Shown here in pieces: positions 31,173-45,905 of a stretch of DNA of 64,000 nt. The notes below the pieces were generated by a model, which saw only the letters and a program-made list of their open reading frames with translations, was not told the origin of the DNA and searched no databases. Numbering within the stretch: the first letter of the stretch is position 1; each line of letters starts with the position of its first letter. The DNA comes from Microbacterium sp. (lineage in GTDB: Bacteria > Actinomycetota > Actinomycetes > Actinomycetales > Microbacteriaceae): NCBI GenBank assembly GCA_013823625.1, contig PNMM01000001.1, positions 1,240,001-1,304,000 on the forward strand. The letters run 5' to 3'. A program made the position numbers and the translations under genes.

Positions 31173-31542
31173 TGGTGGAGATGGGGGGAATTGAACCCCC
31201 GTCCATCGCTGTGAGCCAGAGCCTTCTACGGGCGTAGTCTGCTGAAACGTTCTACTCGGCTCCGACCTTTGTTGCAGACCCCTAGGTCGACGAGCCCAGC
31301 CTCAGTTTAAGTCCCACATGCACCTGAGACGCAGGCACGCAGCAAGTCTCCTTCATGACGCCAGTGATCGGGTCGGAGACGCACCCGGACTGACGGACTA
31401 TCTACTCTGCCTAGGCGGCGAGAGCGAAGTCGGTGCGCTTAGCATTGGCACCTGTTGTTTGCAGAGATCGTTAACGAGATAACCCTGCATCCTCGACCCG
31501 CTTCTCACCGTTTCGCAGGCGATGTCGAAACCGATCATCCCC
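31173..31542 (-). ncRNA. ssrA: Transfer-messenger RNA (tmRNA)
   Basis: Rescues stalled ribosomes together with SmpB. Read on the minus strand, the 5' end GGGGATG pairs with CATCTCC next to an encoded ACCA 3' end, forming the tRNA-like acceptor stem. The T-arm is GGGGGTTCAATTCCCCC, and GGTTTCGACA follows the 5' strand as usual. The internal frame encodes the tag ANAKRTDFALAA then TAG. About 370 nt, one-piece form. smpB lies 0.9 kb away on the same strand. Mature ends are inferred from acceptor-stem pairing. Confidence 0.96.
31411..31449 (-). other. tmRNA proteolysis-tag reading frame
   Basis: Resume codon GCC then AAT GCT AAG and so on to TAG: tag peptide ANAKRTDFALAA. The C-terminal ALAA is the degron recognised by ClpXP-type proteases. 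Confidence 0.85.
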
Positions 31543-39150: not shown

Positions 39151-39903
39151 TCAGTCCCGCTGCGCGTAGCTCAGGGCTTGCTGCGCAAAGGCCGCGCCCA
39201 CCTCGAGCGTTTGGTCGCGGTAGCGCCGCCAGTTTTCGTGACTCAAGCGCTCGTGCTCCTCGGGGTCGAACCCCTCACGCTCGTAGACGCTGCGCCCACC
39301 CGCGATCCACGAGAGCTGCGACGCGAGCCCCACCTCGAGGTGAAACTGCAGACCCCAGGCCGCATCGCCAAGGCGGTAGGCCTCGATGATGCCGTTGGTC
39401 TCGCCGAGCAGCACGGCGCCTTCGGGCAGCTCGTGGCTGTCGAAGTGGTAGTGGTACACAGCGACCTCGCCGTCGTCGCTCGAGCGCGCGAGAGCGCCGA
39501 CGACGGGGTCGGCGGCGGCTTCGTCGGTCAAGCGAACAGTCGTCCACCCGAGTTCGGGCACGGGTGAGGGCTTGAACGGCGCTCCGGCGGCGGCGGCGAG
39601 CAGCTGCGAGCCGAAGCAGAGACCCAGAGTGGGCATCCCGATCTCCAGGGCGCGTTCGAGGATGCGCTTCTCGTGGGTCATCCAGGGGTGCTCGGCTTCT
39701 TCAGACACGCCCGCGTAGGCGCCGAGCGAAATGATTCCGCTGAAGCGTTCGAGAGCATCCACCGCGGGGGCACCCTCGGGGTCACGCTTGACATCCCACG
39801 TCACGATGCGCAGTCCGGCTTCGGCCAGCGGCGCGGCTAGCTCATTGAGGTTGTCGTCGGGGTCGTGAATCACGACAAGCACTTCAGGGGTGGTGGCGCT
39901 CAT
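39151..39903 (-). CDS. Class I glutamine amidotransferase (GMP-synthase-like)
   Basis: 250 residues, free-standing GATase1 domain. Nucleophile Cys in LGLCFGSQLLAAAAG (about 93-107), oxyanion turn SLGAYAG, and the His-Glu of the triad in WGLQFHLEV (about 183-191). It would release ammonia from glutamine for a partner synthetase, or cleave a gamma-glutamyl bond like PuuD-type hydrolases. It overlaps the predicted nucleotidyltransferase gene by 4 bp (ATGA), so the two are translationally coupled; that protein is the obvious candidate partner. No synthetase gene is adjacent. Confidence 0.85.
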   Translation of the reverse strand: MSATTPEVLVVIHDPDDNLNELAAPLAEAGLRIVTWDVKRDPEGAPAVDALERFSGIISLGAYAGVSEEAEHPWMTHEKRILERALEIGMPTLGLCFGSQLLAAAAGAPFKPSPVPELGWTTVRLTDEAAADPVVGALARSSDDGEVAVYHYHFDSHELPEGAVLLGETNGIIEAYRLGDAAWGLQFHLEVGLASQLSWIAGGRSVYEREGFDPEEHERLSHENWRRYRDQTLEVGAAFAQQALSYAQRD

Positions 39904-41237
39904 GAGTGCACCTCTTGCATGGCCCGGATGTAGTCGCGAATCGTTGGCACGCCCTCGAGTTTGTCACGGAAGAACGTGTTGACGAGGTTGATGACGCGCG
40001 TCTGGGCGGCCTCGACCTCGGCGGTGCGACGCTCCCCCGCCTCTTGGTCTTCGAGAGTGCGGCGCAGGCTCAGCAGCGCCGAGACGATCTCGGTCTCTTC
40101 ATCACCATCGAGCATTTGGATGACCTGCATCATGAGTGCGTCAGTCTGATCGCGCACGGCCTCAATCGGGATGCTCGAGCCCGCCTGCGTCGCGTTGTCG
40201 AGCGTCGAGATGAGCGACCACACCTGATAGAGAATCGTCGCCGGCTCATCGAAGAGCTCGCGCACATAGGCGGCATCCATGTGTCGGCCCGAGAGGCGGA
40301 AGATGTTGTACATGCGCTTGGCGGCTTTGCCGTAGTTGACCTGCTTGGTGAGGTACTTGCGCACCTCATCTTCGAGGCGGTCGACATACTCGTCGAGCGC
40401 GTCGTCGCTGACGTGCTGCACGACCTTCGTGAACGTGGGCAGGTCGTCGGCCTCGAGGTAGACCTCTTGAAAGTAGGCGTCGAGGTATCCGTCGAGGGCG
40501 ACGATTTCGCCGTTGGGCGACTCCCAGGTGACATCGATGACGTTGCTCGCGTTCGACAGCGACTTGCGCGAGGGGTCGGTGACGACCCAGTCGAGCTTGC
40601 ACCAGCCCGGGTCGAGCGCGGCCTCCTGCCACGTGATCGTGCGCACAGTGCCGTCGTCGAGCGTCAACTCAATGCGCTCGGCCTCGATCTCGGCGGGCGT
40701 CCACGTGATGGGGCTGCCGTGCTTGCGCGCGACGCCGTTGTGCACGCCATCGACCGGGTAACTGCCGAGCTTGCCCTCGAGAAACTGAAACGCGTCGCCC
40801 GTGTACGTGCGCCGAGCGGCGGCACGCATGAGGTCGGCCATGATTCGGCACGCCTCCTCGCGCGTGGGCGCCTTGATGTTGAGGCGCTGAAAATAGTCAC
40901 AGTCACCAGGGAACGACTGAATCTTTGACTGCGCCGCCGAGCCGCTCAACGCAAGTGCGCTCTCGGCAATCTCGGGCGGCCCCGTGACTTCAACCACCTG
41001 ACCGATGCGGCGAAAACGCTCCAGGTCGCGCGGCGCGAAGTCGAGCATGCTCACGCGGTGACCGAAGGTTCCGCTCTCGTGCGACACGATGTGGTCGTCG
41101 CTCGAGGCGTCGGCCGCGATGGCCGCGAGCCACTGCAGCGCAGCCTCTTCATCGAGTTGCACTCCGAGCCGAGCGGCGGCCTCGCGAATGCGCTCAATGT
41201 CGTCGGCAGGGCTCGGCTGATCAGACGGCTCAATCAT
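39900..41237 (-). CDS. Predicted pol-beta-superfamily nucleotidyltransferase, uncharacterised
   Basis: 445 residues, not matched to a named family. Residues 98-115 contain the NTase signature hG[GS]-x(11)-D-h-D: SGS (99-100 Gly-Ser), then GDCDYF (Asp112, Asp114). A third carboxylate fits Asp216 in KLDWVVTD, in a strand-like context. Downstream (about 265-390) is an all-helical part with KRMYNIFRLSGRHMDAAYVRELF, resembling the helical half of poly(A)-polymerase or OAS-type enzymes. A nucleotidyl-transfer activity (RNA tailing, nucleotide signal or protein modification) is inferred. RBS AGAGG lies 8 nt before ATG. Operon with the GATase downstream and a DEDDh exonuclease 26 bp upstream. Confidence 0.65.
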   Translation of the reverse strand: MIEPSDQPSPADDIERIREAAARLGVQLDEEAALQWLAAIAADASSDDHIVSHESGTFGHRVSMLDFAPRDLERFRRIGQVVEVTGPPEIAESALALSGSAAQSKIQSFPGDCDYFQRLNIKAPTREEACRIMADLMRAAARRTYTGDAFQFLEGKLGSYPVDGVHNGVARKHGSPITWTPAEIEAERIELTLDDGTVRTITWQEAALDPGWCKLDWVVTDPSRKSLSNASNVIDVTWESPNGEIVALDGYLDAYFQEVYLEADDLPTFTKVVQHVSDDALDEYVDRLEDEVRKYLTKQVNYGKAAKRMYNIFRLSGRHMDAAYVRELFDEPATILYQVWSLISTLDNATQAGSSIPIEAVRDQTDALMMQVIQMLDGDEETEIVSALLSLRRTLEDQEAGERRTAEVEAAQTRVINLVNTFFRDKLEGVPTIRDYIRAMQEVHS

Positions 41238-41263: not shown

Positions 41264-41845
41264 TCAGGGGCGCGCGGCGACCTCGGCTCGCACGGCCCGG
41301 AAGAGGGCCGCTTGGTCGCGCGCATCGTCGAGTGCATTATGCGTCAGCGTGATGTCGAGCCCATAGCGTTCGGCGACAAAGTTCATGCTCGTGCCCGCCC
41401 AACTTGAGCCTGTTGCTCCGAGGTAGAAGGCCTTGATGTCGAGCGCCGAGTGGCCGAAGGGGTTGTGGCCGAGATAGCGGTGGAAGTAGTCGGCCACGAA
41501 CATCCAGTCAAAGACAGCATTGAAGCCGACCATGACGGGCCGGTGCCCCGCTGGAGTGACCGAGGCAATCCAGTCGGCGAACTGCTGCATCGCTGCCGCG
41601 GGCGCGGTTCCGGATGCTCGCAAACCGTCGAGCGTAAAGCCCCCCACACTCATCGCCGCCTCGAGCACCCCCTCGCGGTCGGGCTGCAGTTCGACATAGA
41701 AGCTCGGCTCGGTGTCGGCCAGGTCTACGGCGCAGGCTCCGACCGAGAGCATCGCGTAGTCGCTCGGGCTGGGGCCCGCCGCTTCGATGTCGACACTGAT
41801 GTAGGTGACCGGTTTCTCGCGCCGTTCGGCGGTGTCAGAACTCAC
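41264..41845 (-). CDS. DEDDh-family 3'-5' exonuclease
   Basis: 193 residues with all acidic sites: YISVDIEAAG (Asp20, Glu22), a second Asp in GFNAVFDWMFV, and HNALDDARDQA (His and Asp of ExoIII). This is the fold of oligoribonuclease, RNase T and DnaQ. It degrades short RNA or DNA from the 3' end; which one is unknown. GTG 41845 is preferred; a TTG at 41893 would add 16 residues of unlikely composition. It is the first gene of the minus-strand run with the predicted NTase and the amidotransferase. Confidence 0.85.
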   Translation of the reverse strand: MSSDTAERREKPVTYISVDIEAAGPSPSDYAMLSVGACAVDLADTEPSFYVELQPDREGVLEAAMSVGGFTLDGLRASGTAPAAAMQQFADWIASVTPAGHRPVMVGFNAVFDWMFVADYFHRYLGHNPFGHSALDIKAFYLGATGSSWAGTSMNFVAERYGLDITLTHNALDDARDQAALFRAVRAEVAARP

Positions 41846-41910
41846 GGGGCCATTCTGCCGTTCGGCTCGCCAAACGCCGACCAGTCGGGGCAATGCGACA
41901 TACTGGCGTC

Positions 41911-42987
41911 ATGGATGCCGAGGGTCGTCGCGAGCTCACCGCGCTTCGCCGTGCATCCCACGCCCTGACCTCCTCGCGTTTCGCGAACGGGACCGACCTC
42001 GTGCGGTCGATGCTCGCTCTTCAGGCTCAGGACTATCCAGGAGTTCTCTGGTCGATCGGCCGGCGGGTGCCGGGCGCAACGCAAGCATCGGTAGAACGCG
42101 CTCTGGCCGCGGGAGACATCGTGCGATCGTGGCCGATGCGCGGCACCCTGCACGTCGTCGCGCCCGACGATCTGGGGTGGATGCTCGCCATCACCCGTCG
42201 CCGCACCGCGACGACGATGGCGCGACGTCAGGCGCAACTCGAGCTTTCGAGTCACTACCTTGGGGCGGCCGCCGAGGTCGCGCGATCCGCGTTGCATGGC
42301 GGGGGCATCCTTCGCCGCCCCAATCTTCTTGCTGCGTTCGAGGCGGCCGGCATCTCGACCACCGGGCAGCGCGGCTACCACCTGTTGTTGCACCTCGCCG
42401 TCAACGCTGTCATCGTGTTCGGCCCGATCGACGGCAAACACCAGACCTTCGCGCTCTTCGACGAGTGGATTCGCGAATCGCGCGCGCTCGAGGGAGACGA
42501 CGCCCTCGCCGAGTTCGCGCGCGGTTACTTTCGGGGCCACGGCCCGGCAACCGACCGAGACTTCGCGTGGTGGGCCTCGCTGCCTCTCAGCGAGGCACGC
42601 GCGGGAATCGCCGCAGCGGGCCTCCCGTCACGGTTCGTCGGCGGCGAGACGTACTACCTCGACCCCGAAGTGGAGGCCGGGTCTTCGAGTGACACTGTTC
42701 TCGCACTCCCCGGCTTCGACGAGTATGTGTTGGGGTACCAAGACCGCTCGGTGGCACTGCCCGCTTCGCTCTCAGAACAGGTCATCCCAGGCAACAACGG
42801 CCTCTTTCGGCCGACGATCGTGGTCGACGGCCAGGTGGTGGGCACGTGGAGCCGCACCGAGCGCGCGACAACCATCGACATCGAGCTCGATGTCTTGTCG
42901 CCGCTTGACGAGCCCACGCGTGAGTTGGTCGAGCGCGAGTTCGAGCGCTTTGCGGCCTTCGTCGGCAAATCCGTAACGGTGCGCTGA
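41911..42987 (+). CDS. Winged-helix protein of the AlkZ/YcaQ DNA glycosylase family
   Basis: 358 residues with repeated winged helices (HTH_42). The catalytic QxQ motif of AlkZ-type glycosylases is present as LALQAQDYPG (Gln38, Gln40), followed by SWPMRGTLHVVAPDDLGWML and the C-terminal FDEYVLGYQDRSVAL and NNGLFRPTIVVDGQVVGTW strands. Relatives remove bulky or crosslinked alkyl bases from DNA. ATG 41911 fits the family start; an in-frame ATG at 41893 adds six residues. CATACT lies 6 nt upstream. Divergent from the exonuclease gene. Confidence 0.83.
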   Translation: MDAEGRRELTALRRASHALTSSRFANGTDLVRSMLALQAQDYPGVLWSIGRRVPGATQASVERALAAGDIVRSWPMRGTLHVVAPDDLGWMLAITRRRTATTMARRQAQLELSSHYLGAAAEVARSALHGGGILRRPNLLAAFEAAGISTTGQRGYHLLLHLAVNAVIVFGPIDGKHQTFALFDEWIRESRALEGDDALAEFARGYFRGHGPATDRDFAWWASLPLSEARAGIAAAGLPSRFVGGETYYLDPEVEAGSSSDTVLALPGFDEYVLGYQDRSVALPASLSEQVIPGNNGLFRPTIVVDGQVVGTWSRTERATTIDIELDVLSPLDEPTRELVEREFERFAAFVGKSVTVR

Positions 42988-42993
42988 CGGGCG

Positions 42994-43449
42994 TCAGCCG
43001 AAGACGCTGCGGCTCGTCGCCGAGACCTGCAACGGGATGCCCTCCGGCACAAACACGCTGAGCACAGGCGGCGCCCACACGGCCGCGAGAGTGACCCGTG
43101 CGCTCAGGCCGTCGGGTGTCGTCGCCTCAACGAGCCGCAACCCATCGAGTCGAGAGTCGGGCGCTTGCGCGAGGTACTCGGCGGCGGCCGCGGTGACCTC
43201 AGGCTTCGTCAGGCGCGGGCGCAACTCGCCGTCGGCAGTCAGCTGAACTGAGTCGAGTCGGAACGACTCGGCCGCGGCGAGCGCGGCGCCGTCGGCGAGC
43301 GTGAAGAGCCGTGCTCGCTCGAGGTAGAGCGAAGTCGCGGCGCTGACGAGCAACACGACCGCGAGCGCGAGAGCGCCGAAGCCCGCGATGAGAGGCAAGA
43401 TCGAACCGCGATCGTCGGCGAGTTCGACTCCCTTCGTGGCAGGCCTCAC
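42994..43449 (-). CDS. TadE/G-like pseudopilin (Rv3654c type)
   Basis: 151 residues. A short cytoplasmic start with DDRGSILPLIAGFGALALAVVLLVSAATSLYLER is the TadE-like membrane helix with the G-S motif; the outer part contains FTLADGAALAAAESF, typical of TadG/Rv3654c proteins. Such proteins sit at the base or tip of Tad/Flp pili. GTG 43449 overlaps the upstream pseudopilin gene by GTGA. Last of four genes on the minus strand. Confidence 0.8.
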   Translation of the reverse strand: MRPATKGVELADDRGSILPLIAGFGALALAVVLLVSAATSLYLERARLFTLADGAALAAAESFRLDSVQLTADGELRPRLTKPEVTAAAAEYLAQAPDSRLDGLRLVEATTPDGLSARVTLAAVWAPPVLSVFVPEGIPLQVSATSRSVFG

Positions 43450-43931
43450 CGCGCGCCCCAAAACCGCGAGACCTGCTGGGTCGCACTCGCCTCTACGGGC
43501 ACAGCGAGCGGAACGCGCAAGTCGAACAGCGGGGGCACAAGCGGCAGCGGCACGCGCACGGCAACCTCGACGGTGACCCATCCGCGTCGGGTGTGACACT
43601 GCCCGGGGTTGGGCGTGCAGCTGATGCTGAGGGCCACATTGCTCGCCTCGAGTCCGTGGTCGGCGAGGGCAAGGTCGAGCGCACGCTGGGCTGCCGCGGA
43701 TCCGGCCGCGGTCGTCGGCGCCTGAACGAAGACCCGCGCCGCCTGCCGAGCAGCTCCCTCCGTCGCCAGCGCTGCCGACTGGATCGTGCCGAGCGTGAGA
43801 ATCAGGTAGACGAGCGGCACGAGCATCAGCAGGCCCGCGGTGAGAAACTCGAGTGAGGCCGAGCCGCGGTCACCGCATCCGTCGCCGGGCGCTGCGTCGA
43901 GGCGGCTAACGGAGGGGCTCGAGGGCCGCAC
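43446..43931 (-). CDS. TadE-like pseudopilin
   Basis: 161 residues with DRGSASLEFLTAGLLMLVPLVYLILTLGTIQSAALATEGAARQAAR split around the single N-terminal helix, the TadE pattern with Glu near the helix start (Glu is important for pilin assembly). Two Cys lie in a loop (SCTPNPGQCHTRRG). GTG 43931 is chosen because GGAGG stands 9 nt upstream; a longer frame to ATG 43955 also overlaps the preceding gene. Component of the split Tad locus. Confidence 0.78.
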   Translation of the reverse strand: MRPSSPSVSRLDAAPGDGCGDRGSASLEFLTAGLLMLVPLVYLILTLGTIQSAALATEGAARQAARVFVQAPTTAAGSAAAQRALDLALADHGLEASNVALSISCTPNPGQCHTRRGWVTVEVAVRVPLPLVPPLFDLRVPLAVPVEASATQQVSRFWGAR

Positions 43932-44304
43932 GGCCGCTGACCTCCAGGGTGTCATCGATGCCGATCATGCCGATGAGTGGCAGGGGCGAGCTCACGGTCA
44001 CGATGACGACCGGATGCCCTCCGTATGCCCCCATGCCCGCCGAGATGCTCTGCGCGTAGCTCGGCCCCAGGGCCGCGGTAATGAGCTCACGACTGCGCTC
44101 GATGCCGGCGGGTAGGGAGCTGTCAGCGAGTGCCGCGAACCGCGCACCCTCCGCCGCCGCATCGATGAGGGTGGTGCGCACGTGTAAGGCGAACGCCACT
44201 TGCAGCACGCTCAGCGTCACGAGCGTGAGCAGCACCCCCACGAGCACGAACTCGACGGCGGCCGAGCCGCGATCGTCGGCGAGGCGTGTGCGCAGAGCAT
44301 CCAC
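43906..44304 (-). CDS. TadE-like pseudopilin
   Basis: 132 residues: DDRGSAAVEFVLVGVLLTLVTLSVLQVAFALHVR is the TadE motif with the GSAAVEF start, then a helix with DAAAEGARFAALADSS. The outer region is small and beta-rich. It overlaps the next pseudopilin gene and follows the Flp-like gene by 14 bp. Confidence 0.82.
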   Translation of the reverse strand: MDALRTRLADDRGSAAVEFVLVGVLLTLVTLSVLQVAFALHVRTTLIDAAAEGARFAALADSSLPAGIERSRELITAALGPSYAQSISAGMGAYGGHPVVIVTVSSPLPLIGMIGIDDTLEVSGRAALEPLR

Positions 44305-44318
44305 GAGAGGCGACCGCT

Positions 44319-44495
44319 CTAGAAGCCCGTGACGCGGTCGATCGCCTGCTGAAAGACGCCCTGCAGCGCCGGGCCCGCGAGTGCCCAGATGAGGATGACG
44401 AGCCCGGCCGTCATGAGGGTGATGAGCACCCAGCCGGGCACGTCACCGCGGTCGTCGCGGAGTGGCTGCGCTCGTTGCGCGATCAGAGACTTCAT
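44319..44495 (-). CDS. Small Flp-type/DUF4244-like pilin
   Basis: 58 residues: DDRGDVPGWVLITLMTAGLVILIWALAGPALQGVFQQAIDRVTGF, one hydrophobic helix preceded by a charged start, as in the short Flp-type subunits of actinobacterial Tad loci. ATG 44495 is preferred; GTG 44543 and ATG 44534 are in-frame alternatives that would add 13-16 residues. It heads the minus-strand pseudopilin group. Confidence 0.75.
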   Translation of the reverse strand: MKSLIAQRAQPLRDDRGDVPGWVLITLMTAGLVILIWALAGPALQGVFQQAIDRVTGF

Positions 44496-44648
44496 GAGGA
44501 GAACTGTGGCAAAGAGGCCCGTTTCGAGAGTCATACTCTCCACAAGCGGCGCGAGGTGAATCAGCGGCCAGTGGCTAGGCGTTCGAAGGCCCCTAAGGTA
44601 GATTTGTTTTCACTATTGATTTCGCAGCGCACCCGATCGGAACCCACT

Positions 44649-45905
44649 ATGACCCGCGCCTCCGTTCGTCGTTTTGCTGCGATGTCTGTGGCGCTCGCAC
44701 TGCCGTTGGCATTCTTGACGGTTGCCCCAGCCTCCGCCGCGACCGTGGGCGTCGATACGTGGAGTGAGATCAAGGCCGCGTTCTTGGTCGATGGTGACAC
44801 CGTCAGGCTTGATGCCGACATCACCGCACCGGCTGGCGACTCACTTTCCGTTCAGGCTGGCGAGAGCATCATCCTCGACCTCAACGGCCGTTCCCTCACC
44901 ATCACGAACCCGGCCATGAGTACCGCTGCCATCTTGGTACCCCCCACCTCTAGCCTCACGATCAATGCCTCCGGCGGCGGCGAACTCACCGCTACCGGTG
45001 GCCCTGATGGGGCCGGTATCGGAGGTAGCGCCCAAGGCGCGGGTGGCACCGTCACCATCAACGGCGGCACCATTACAGCGACCGGCGGCGCTTTCGCGGC
45101 CGGCATTGGAGGCGGGGTTGGCGTCGGGCAACCCGGAGGTGCTGGCGGCACCACCACGATCAACGGCGGCACGATCACAGCGACCGGCAGCGTCAACGGG
45201 GCCGGCATCGGTGGTGGCGGCACCGGTTCTGGCGACGGCGGCGCTGGGGGCACCACCACCATCAACGGCGGCACCATCACCGCAATCGGCGGCGGAGCCG
45301 GCATCGGTGGTGGCGGCGGTTCTGGCGGCGCTGGCGGCGCTGGCGGCACCACCACCATCAACGGCGGCACCATCACAGCGAGCGGCTTCGGGGCCGGCAT
45401 CGGAAGCGGGGCCGGCAGCATCAGCCCGGGTGCATTGCAGGTCAACGGCACGCCTGACGTCGGTGCCGCAACCGATGGTGGCGGCCCTTACGCGGCGCCG
45501 ATCACCAACCCCATAACACCACCGGCCGGCGTCGGCTACTCGGCTACCACGTCCACTCTCGGCAGCGCCGACACGGTCGAGTTGCGGTTCAACTACCTCA
45601 TCACCTTTGCCGCGAATGGCGGCAGCGCCACCGTCCCCCAGACCATCAACGACGGCGACACTGTCTCTGTACCAGCCACTCCTACCCGCGAGGGCTTCAC
45701 TTTCACCGGATGGACCTCGGGCGGATCGGCACACGACTTCACCGCTCCGGTCACCGGGCCACTGGTCCTCACCGCAGCCTGGGCTGCCATGCTCGCCGCA
45801 ACGGGCGCTGACGTGACCTCGGCGGCCGCAGTCGCGTTCTTGCTCACGGCAGTCGGTGTGCTTCTGTTCGCACGACGCCGACGGGCAACTGCCCAGTCGG
45901 CCTAA
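44649..45905 (+). CDS. LAxTG-anchored surface protein with Gly-rich carbohydrate-lyase-like repeats
   Basis: 418 residues. Signal peptide (RRFAAMSVALALPLAFL, cleaved after APASAA), a beta-helix-like start (VDGDTVRLDADI, LDLNGRSLTI), four or five Gly-rich repeats with the core TTTINGGTITATG and GAGIGGG (about 110-265), one Listeria-Bacteroides repeat (ITFAANGGSATVPQTI to GWTSGG, about 315-365), then a class E sortase signal LAATG, a hydrophobic helix and RRRR. It should be covalently linked to peptidoglycan. No sortase gene is in the window. It stands at one edge of the insertion that divides the Tad locus. Confidence 0.82.
   Translation: MTRASVRRFAAMSVALALPLAFLTVAPASAATVGVDTWSEIKAAFLVDGDTVRLDADITAPAGDSLSVQAGESIILDLNGRSLTITNPAMSTAAILVPPTSSLTINASGGGELTATGGPDGAGIGGSAQGAGGTVTINGGTITATGGAFAAGIGGGVGVGQPGGAGGTTTINGGTITATGSVNGAGIGGGGTGSGDGGAGGTTTINGGTITAIGGGAGIGGGGGSGGAGGAGGTTTINGGTITASGFGAGIGSGAGSISPGALQVNGTPDVGAATDGGGPYAAPITNPITPPAGVGYSATTSTLGSADTVELRFNYLITFAANGGSATVPQTINDGDTVSVPATPTREGFTFTGWTSGGSAHDFTAPVTGPLVLTAAWAAMLAATGADVTSAAAVAFLLTAVGVLLFARRRRATAQSA
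45050..45395 (+). repeat. In-frame repeats in the LAxTG protein gene
   Basis: Four copies of a unit containing ACCATCAACGGCGGCACC (or close variants) start near 45053, 45154, 45257 and 45353, with Gly-codon-rich spacers of 78-86 bp. Recombination could change copy number. Confidence 0.8.

Follow-up and report, generated by a model that had tools for sequence, protein, structure and literature searches.

A conserved, unnamed nucleotidyltransferase-fold family often encoded beside a Cap18-type exonuclease in bacteria, with a predicted fold similar to that of Megavirus Mg662

A Gly-Ser pair followed after eleven residues by an Asp-x-Asp element and by a distal Asp (GS-x11-DxD) is typical of CCA-adding enzymes, poly(A) polymerases and the MNT/ANT enzymes. 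Terminal transferases and 3'-5' exonucleases act on the same chemical end. The protein Mg662 of Megavirus chilensis, named a Megaviridae ORFan in its PDB title, has been solved in the entries 4ams, 4amq and 4xul, the last one being, by its entry title, a complex with GTP. Cap18 of E. coli (PDB 7t2s; PMC12345164, PMC11208441) is termed a 3'-5' DNA exonuclease in the Borg paper, and in another study a catalytically dead Cap18 left protection unaffected in one CBASS (PMC9122588). The locus described here contains a nucleotidyltransferase (NTase) motif and a Cap18-type exonuclease side by side.

The window, that is, the whole stretch of 64,000 nucleotides of Microbacterium sp. that was analysed, carried on its minus strand an open reading frame of 445 amino acids with an ATG start (39900..41237), encoding a protein with an NTase fold and no named family. 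Direct reading of this frame located Gly99-Ser100 (codons 40938..40943), eleven residues (101-111) and then Asp112-Cys113-Asp114 (40896..40904), as well as a third carboxylate, Asp216 (40590..40592), within K214-L-D-W-V-V219, and the FRLSGRH stretch at residues 313-319, so that all the elements reported in the first-pass annotation (the GS-x11-DCD motif, Asp216 in KLDWVV and FRLSGRH) were found in the frame. The hG[GS]-x(9-13)-DhD signature together with a distal third carboxylate is the sequence criterion of the NTase (pol-beta-like) superfamily, to which the predicted protein is assigned on this ground.

When the window protein was aligned with those of 79 of the 80 loci taken from genome contigs (L088 was omitted because its frame breaks after 37 amino acids), G99, S100, D112, D114 and D216 were each identical in 80/80 rows and 117 positions were at least 97% identical. 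The same five residues were identical in all 66 rows of a second alignment, which was extended by five rows from remoter members of the window's phylum and included rows at 50% identity. This conservation of the motif is far beyond chance, and Asp112, Asp114 and Asp216, whose loss in homologues had been proposed beforehand as evidence against an active NTase, were retained in every row (80/80 and 66/66). K294, K304, K307, R308 and R314, within the K294-R314 stretch of the helical C-terminal half (40296..40358), were also invariant (66/66 rows), suggesting that these basic residues may bind phosphate or nucleic acid.

Pfam, NCBIfam and PADLOC contained no family that the window NTase matched, and comparison of 66 members with the models of these three collections gave noise only. 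PHROGs, searched with the window protein alone, returned unrelated families (best E 0.012), and a search of the PDB by sequence (phmmer and two profiles) yielded nothing relevant and did not reach Mg662. The Pfam models for CCA-adding enzymes and poly(A) polymerases were not matched by the window protein at E <= 10. For the 66 members, 33 families were hit weakly (E <= 1), and neither these models nor those of the MNT/ANT enzymes were among the 25 that were listed. A known NTase family recognisable by sequence was therefore ruled out by the Pfam, NCBIfam, PADLOC, PHROGs and PDB searches. No paper naming this bacterial family was found in PMC full text, which holds few subscription papers and preprints, and no paper was found there linking the Megavirus ORFan or virophage V21 to a nucleotidyltransferase. 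The family that the protein represents is real, conserved and as yet without a name, and lies within a known superfamily; the unnamed NTase of 445 residues proposed in the first-pass annotation is intact and under strong constraint, and the family, with an intact active-site motif and 288 relatives (the best 80 of them viewed), is missing from Pfam, NCBIfam and PADLOC.

Two AlphaFold models of the NTase were obtained, one from 10 rows (pLDDT 76) and one from 66 rows (pLDDT 83). In the latter, DxD lies on the predicted strand 112-122 and D216 on the predicted strand 213-221, a placement that is consistent with an NTase fold. Both models matched only 4ams, 4xul and 4amq in the PDB at E <= 0.001, so that Mg662 was the sole solved protein reached at this threshold, with E-values for 4ams of 5.1e-7 for the first model and 7.6e-8 for the second. 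TM-scores to Mg662 were 0.41-0.49 when normalised to the query and 0.50-0.58 when normalised to the target, with an rmsd of 6.8-9.8 A and 9-10% identity over 421-452 alignment columns including gaps. The next matches, weaker by three to four orders of magnitude, included FAM46C, OAS1 and CdnE together with proteins that are not NTases. A library of viral structures, searched with the first model only, gave 16 entries at E <= 0.001 (down to 3.2e-14) with TM-scores of 0.37-0.59 by query length; the 11 named ones were all from giant viruses or virophages, among them Zamilon (V6BPH6), the Yellowstone Lake and Qinghai Lake virophages, mavirus, Pithovirus and Klosneuvirus, and five were unnamed.

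A structure comparison had been suggested as a check on the presence of an NTase core, and the best match of both models was indeed an NTase. As to its fold, the CCA-adding enzymes, OAS/CD-NTases and MNTs named beforehand have to give way to the giant-virus protein Mg662, the closest known fold; CCA-adding enzymes, poly(A) polymerases and MNT/ANT enzymes have GS-x11-DxD and the distal Asp in common with the bacterial protein, whereas their fold match was weak or absent. Because the TM-scores were modest and the sequence profiles did not reach Mg662, the relation that the models indicate is called here a fold similarity, structural only and with no sequence link found; on the predicted structures, homology with Mg662 is likely.

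Upstream of the NTase gene, and separated from it by 26 bases, lies a gene for a DEDDh 3'-5' exonuclease of Cap18 type (41264..41845, minus strand; Pfam RNase_T and Rv2179c-like). Its open frame extends to 41893 from a TTG, and the GTG at residue 17 (41845) seems to fit the starts of the homologues better. Residues 30-201 of the product matched PDB 7t2s at E=7.9e-42, and the PADLOC model 'Effector, Exonuclease', which we take to belong to CBASS, matched it at E=1.7e-63; this model also matched an exonuclease encoded in a CBASS operon on a plasmid (1.1e-84). D35, E37, D129, H185 and D190 were identical in every row with a residue at those positions (67-69 rows); these DEDDh residues and the profile match identify the predicted partner as a Cap18-type exonuclease. 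Relatives of the exonuclease were also found on plasmids (90), and the three that were opened all adjoined an annotated CBASS cyclase gene and fell inside the partner group of the exonuclease tree, whose bootstrap had not settled. The DEDDh residues and the group in the tree are common to the partner and E. coli Cap18, but the partner adjoins a different NTase and the other CBASS genes are absent as far as seen.

The exonuclease gene was found directly upstream of the NTase gene and on the same strand in 69/80 loci, including 31/31 actinobacterial ones, and with mechanically chosen starts the two genes overlapped by 4 bases in 10/70 loci measured, suggesting that they may be co-transcribed. 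In one further locus (L081) the exonuclease gene lay 1181 bases from the NTase gene, in another (L062) a divergent exonuclease gene had another orientation, and nine loci had none in the available sequence; L073, L084 and L099, with only 1129, 186 and 124 bases upstream, are poorly judged in this respect. Of 26 congeneric genomes, the 15 that carried one of the genes also carried the other, and neither was in the remaining 11, except for a remnant of 30 amino acids of the NTase in one of them (G024); G007 and G010 had a second exonuclease match each. The distances of the two proteins were correlated (Mantel r 0.72 over 68 pairs, and 0.81 and 0.79 within two groups), with 0/2000 permutations as high, and such correlated distances also arise from a common species history.

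Among 396 sampled genomes of the window's phylum, its own included, the NTase was present in 6, the exonuclease (E <= 1e-20) in 3 and both in only 2; the NTase-bearing genomes G103, G226, G387 and G396 had no exonuclease at E <= 1e-20 and none in the flanks read. When ten genomes without an adjacent exonuclease gene, some of them incomplete, were searched throughout, six gave matches: those of G810 and G812 resembled the partner in identity (50% and 55%), perhaps being true neighbours separated by a contig break, and the other four (L119-L122) were divergent DEDDh genes that were not counted as partners, since they fell in a separate group outside the partner group of the tree. The NTase rows without an exonuclease formed several separate clades (L053/L055/L075; L066/L093; L058/L062; L019-L021), the first of which also groups with L099, where its presence is not assessable, and these NTases retain all the catalytic residues. 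Several lineages have the NTase gene with no exonuclease gene next to it, so that the association is facultative, and the persistence of NTase genes on their own suggests that the exonuclease is auxiliary.

The NTase, encoded at full length in 15 of the 26 congeneric genomes, was found in none of the 34 other genomes of that search. Two more phyla were sampled, each picked as that of a genome carrying the gene (G452 and G454, respectively), and the NTase was detected in 13/251 genomes of the Chloroflexota, one of the matches (G495) spanning only 120 positions, and in 3/101 genomes of the Armatimonadota. A scan of genome contigs reported 288 relatives across species genomes, and the best 80 of them were from Chloroflexota (48), Actinomycetota (31) and, by title, Armatimonadetes (1). 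The range given in the first-pass annotation, actinobacteria, was thus too narrow, the family being patchily distributed in Actinomycetota, Chloroflexota and Armatimonadota, the three phyla sampled. In a midpoint-rooted tree the window and the 31 actinobacterial rows stood on one side; L017-L021, five other rows from the window's phylum, and the single Armatimonadota row were placed with the Chloroflexota on the other. No copy of the NTase was found in phages and plasmids by tblastn or in viral contigs by pattern and tblastn, and further searches of viral contigs by pattern, which retrieved 13 stretches and none, showed no relative of the NTase; a mobile or phage origin was rejected on the basis of these collections.

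The mechanism that we consider the most likely, tentatively and with somewhat less than even confidence, is the addition of nucleotides to a 3' end by the NTase and their trimming by the exonuclease. The NTase would represent a new family of template-independent nucleotidyltransferases, in which a core containing GS, DxD and the distal Asp precedes a helical domain that carries the invariant basic residues, and it would extend its presumed acceptor, a nucleic-acid 3' end, by one or a few nucleotides; the Cap18-type exonuclease would trim those or similar 3' ends, and both together would set the state of the end. We favour this mechanism because the catalytic set is invariant, the predicted fold resembles that of Mg662, the exonuclease gene is adjacent, the presence or absence of the two genes is matched and their distances are correlated. 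The modest TM-scores to Mg662, the missing sequence link and the absence of the exonuclease in several lineages count against it, as do the rare co-occurrence in the sample of 396 genomes, the possibility that the correlated distances reflect species history and the lack of a consistent pointer to RNA or DNA in the neighbourhoods.

A possible but doubtful alternative is a reduced CBASS-like system against phages, in which the NTase would synthesise an oligonucleotide signal, cyclic or linear, with the exonuclease as an accessory or as a regulator of the signal. The CD-NTases of CBASS have the NTase motif and an exonuclease partner of the same type in common with this pair, as indicated by the match to Cap18, the PADLOC profile and the three plasmid cyclase neighbours; the patchy distribution of the NTase also fits, and OAS1, CdnE and cGAS were among the weaker PDB matches of the second model, along with non-NTases such as CorA and GCaMP. 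However, none of the 66 NTase members matched any PADLOC cyclase model at E <= 1, whereas a control CBASS cyclase from one plasmid matched 23 of them (E <= 0.001), and identity with a known CD-NTase was rejected on this account. Alignment of the family to three CBASS cyclases with hhalign gave a probability of 0.2%, a weak test with three cyclase rows only. Neither was there a third gene at a fixed place beside the pair (clusters of at least 8 loci, frames of at least 90 amino acids), and no sensor-effector gene was conserved next to the NTase across phyla, although an unlinked or lineage-specific effector may exist; one further gene cluster (20 loci) spanned both groups, on either strand and at varied distance. 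Moreover, the neighbours named by Pfam in the window and in the loci of two relatives were not defence genes, no copy of the NTase occurred on the phage, plasmid or viral contigs of the collections searched, and, as noted above, catalytically dead Cap18 had no influence on protection in one CBASS (PMC9122588).

Modification of a protein or a small molecule by AMPylation or UMPylation, as in MntA-HepT or the aminoglycoside nucleotidyltransferases, with the exonuclease as a transcriptional passenger, seems improbable. The NTase motif by itself would fit such an activity, and ANT and AadA enzymes were found among the weak PDB matches (E 0.09 or worse), but the sole conserved adjacent gene is that of a nuclease and the invariant basic residues of the C-terminal half would suit a phosphate-rich ligand better. 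No HEPN gene was seen beside the NTase, the exonuclease gene being its only conserved neighbour among clusters of at least 8 loci and the exonuclease and amidotransferase genes its neighbours in the window. A toxin-antitoxin pair, in which the NTase would tail tRNA or some other RNA and thereby block it, with the exonuclease undoing the block, is very unlikely: the genes are adjacent, of opposed chemistry and present or absent together in the genus, but NTases without an adjacent Cap18-type exonuclease keep all their catalytic residues in several clades, which speaks against the exonuclease as a required antitoxin, since such a toxin would be intolerable unless another antitoxin exists.

If 3'-end addition and trimming is what the pair does, or if a new oligonucleotide signal is made, the Mg662/virophage-group NTase and the Cap18-type exonuclease might form a widespread bacterial module for phage defence or nucleic-acid quality control and a cellular counterpart of a giant-virus ORFan gene, a broader reading that we hold with little confidence. 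The giant-virus fold neighbour and the Cap18-type partner raise the interest of the NTase family, which may be a cellular relative of Mg662 and of virophage proteins that are so far uncharacterised, and which is accompanied by an exonuclease type that is associated with anti-phage systems and whose role there is unclear. What one bacterial pair does would thereby bear on the function of the NTase family, of the Mg662/virophage proteins and of the Cap18-type exonuclease alike.

On the other side of the NTase gene, a class I glutamine amidotransferase-like gene (Pfam GATase; 39151..39903, minus strand) overlaps the NTase stop by 4 bases. It was detected at E <= 1e-50 in 17/26 congeneric genomes, 12/15 with the pair and 5/11 without it, and three genomes (G001, G004 and G012) had the pair without it; it is probably a local neighbour and was rejected as a part of the system, since genomes that lack the pair carry it as well. 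In G013 the prfB, GATase and SDR genes occur together without the pair, and in G024, a sixteenth congeneric genome with a match to the NTase, only the 30-residue C-terminal end of the NTase is retained beside the GATase gene (L016:1498-1587 and L162:2294-2383). The remnant is probably a scar of loss, and the two arrangements together indicate that the pair can be lost. An AlkZ-like DNA glycosylase gene (41893..42987, plus strand; Pfam AlkZ-like, E=1.1e-62), divergent from the exonuclease gene, is likewise probably a neighbour and not a part.

Taken as a whole, the neighbourhoods gave no consistent RNA or DNA hint. Genes for tRNA or tmRNA were present in just 7/60 loci, five of them at least 2 kb away and two (L041 and L094) no more than 0.7 kb from the exonuclease gene, and an association of the pair with tRNA was rejected on this count. 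Four LexA/ECF-like patterns occurred upstream of the exonuclease gene in 0, 5, 0 and 4 of 70 loci, with shuffled means of 0.3, 4.4, 0 and 2.2; SOS control was set aside because no LexA-type box was clearly above the shuffles. In three genomes of f49 (L140-L142) the NTase gene, without the exonuclease, is flanked by prs on one side and by the L25/peptidyl-tRNA hydrolase genes on the other, names which rest on Pfam for L141 and on sequence likeness for L140 and L142.

Some further genes were noted in passing. An AurF-like oxygenase gene (L143:5075-6247, minus strand) lies directly upstream of an exonuclease-less NTase frame, with a slight overlap. In L056 and other loci, mostly of Chloroflexota, two clusters of frames (14 and 12 loci) were located on the other strand within several kb of the NTase; they presumably encode DnaG primase (14 loci) and the primary sigma factor (12 loci). 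Rfam found only a tmRNA gene in the window, at 31173-31542 on the minus strand, whose tag is ANAKRTDFALAA (ARAGORN, Rfam). Beyond the glycosylase gene, a region on the minus strand (42994-44304) contains a TadE-like gene (43906-44304) and two adjacent small frames of similar appearance, and it is followed on the plus strand by a frame of 539 amino acids (44286-45905) with repeats rich in Gly and Thr (GGTTTINGGTITA type) and a hydrophobic segment in its C-terminal part, which we take to resemble a surface protein.
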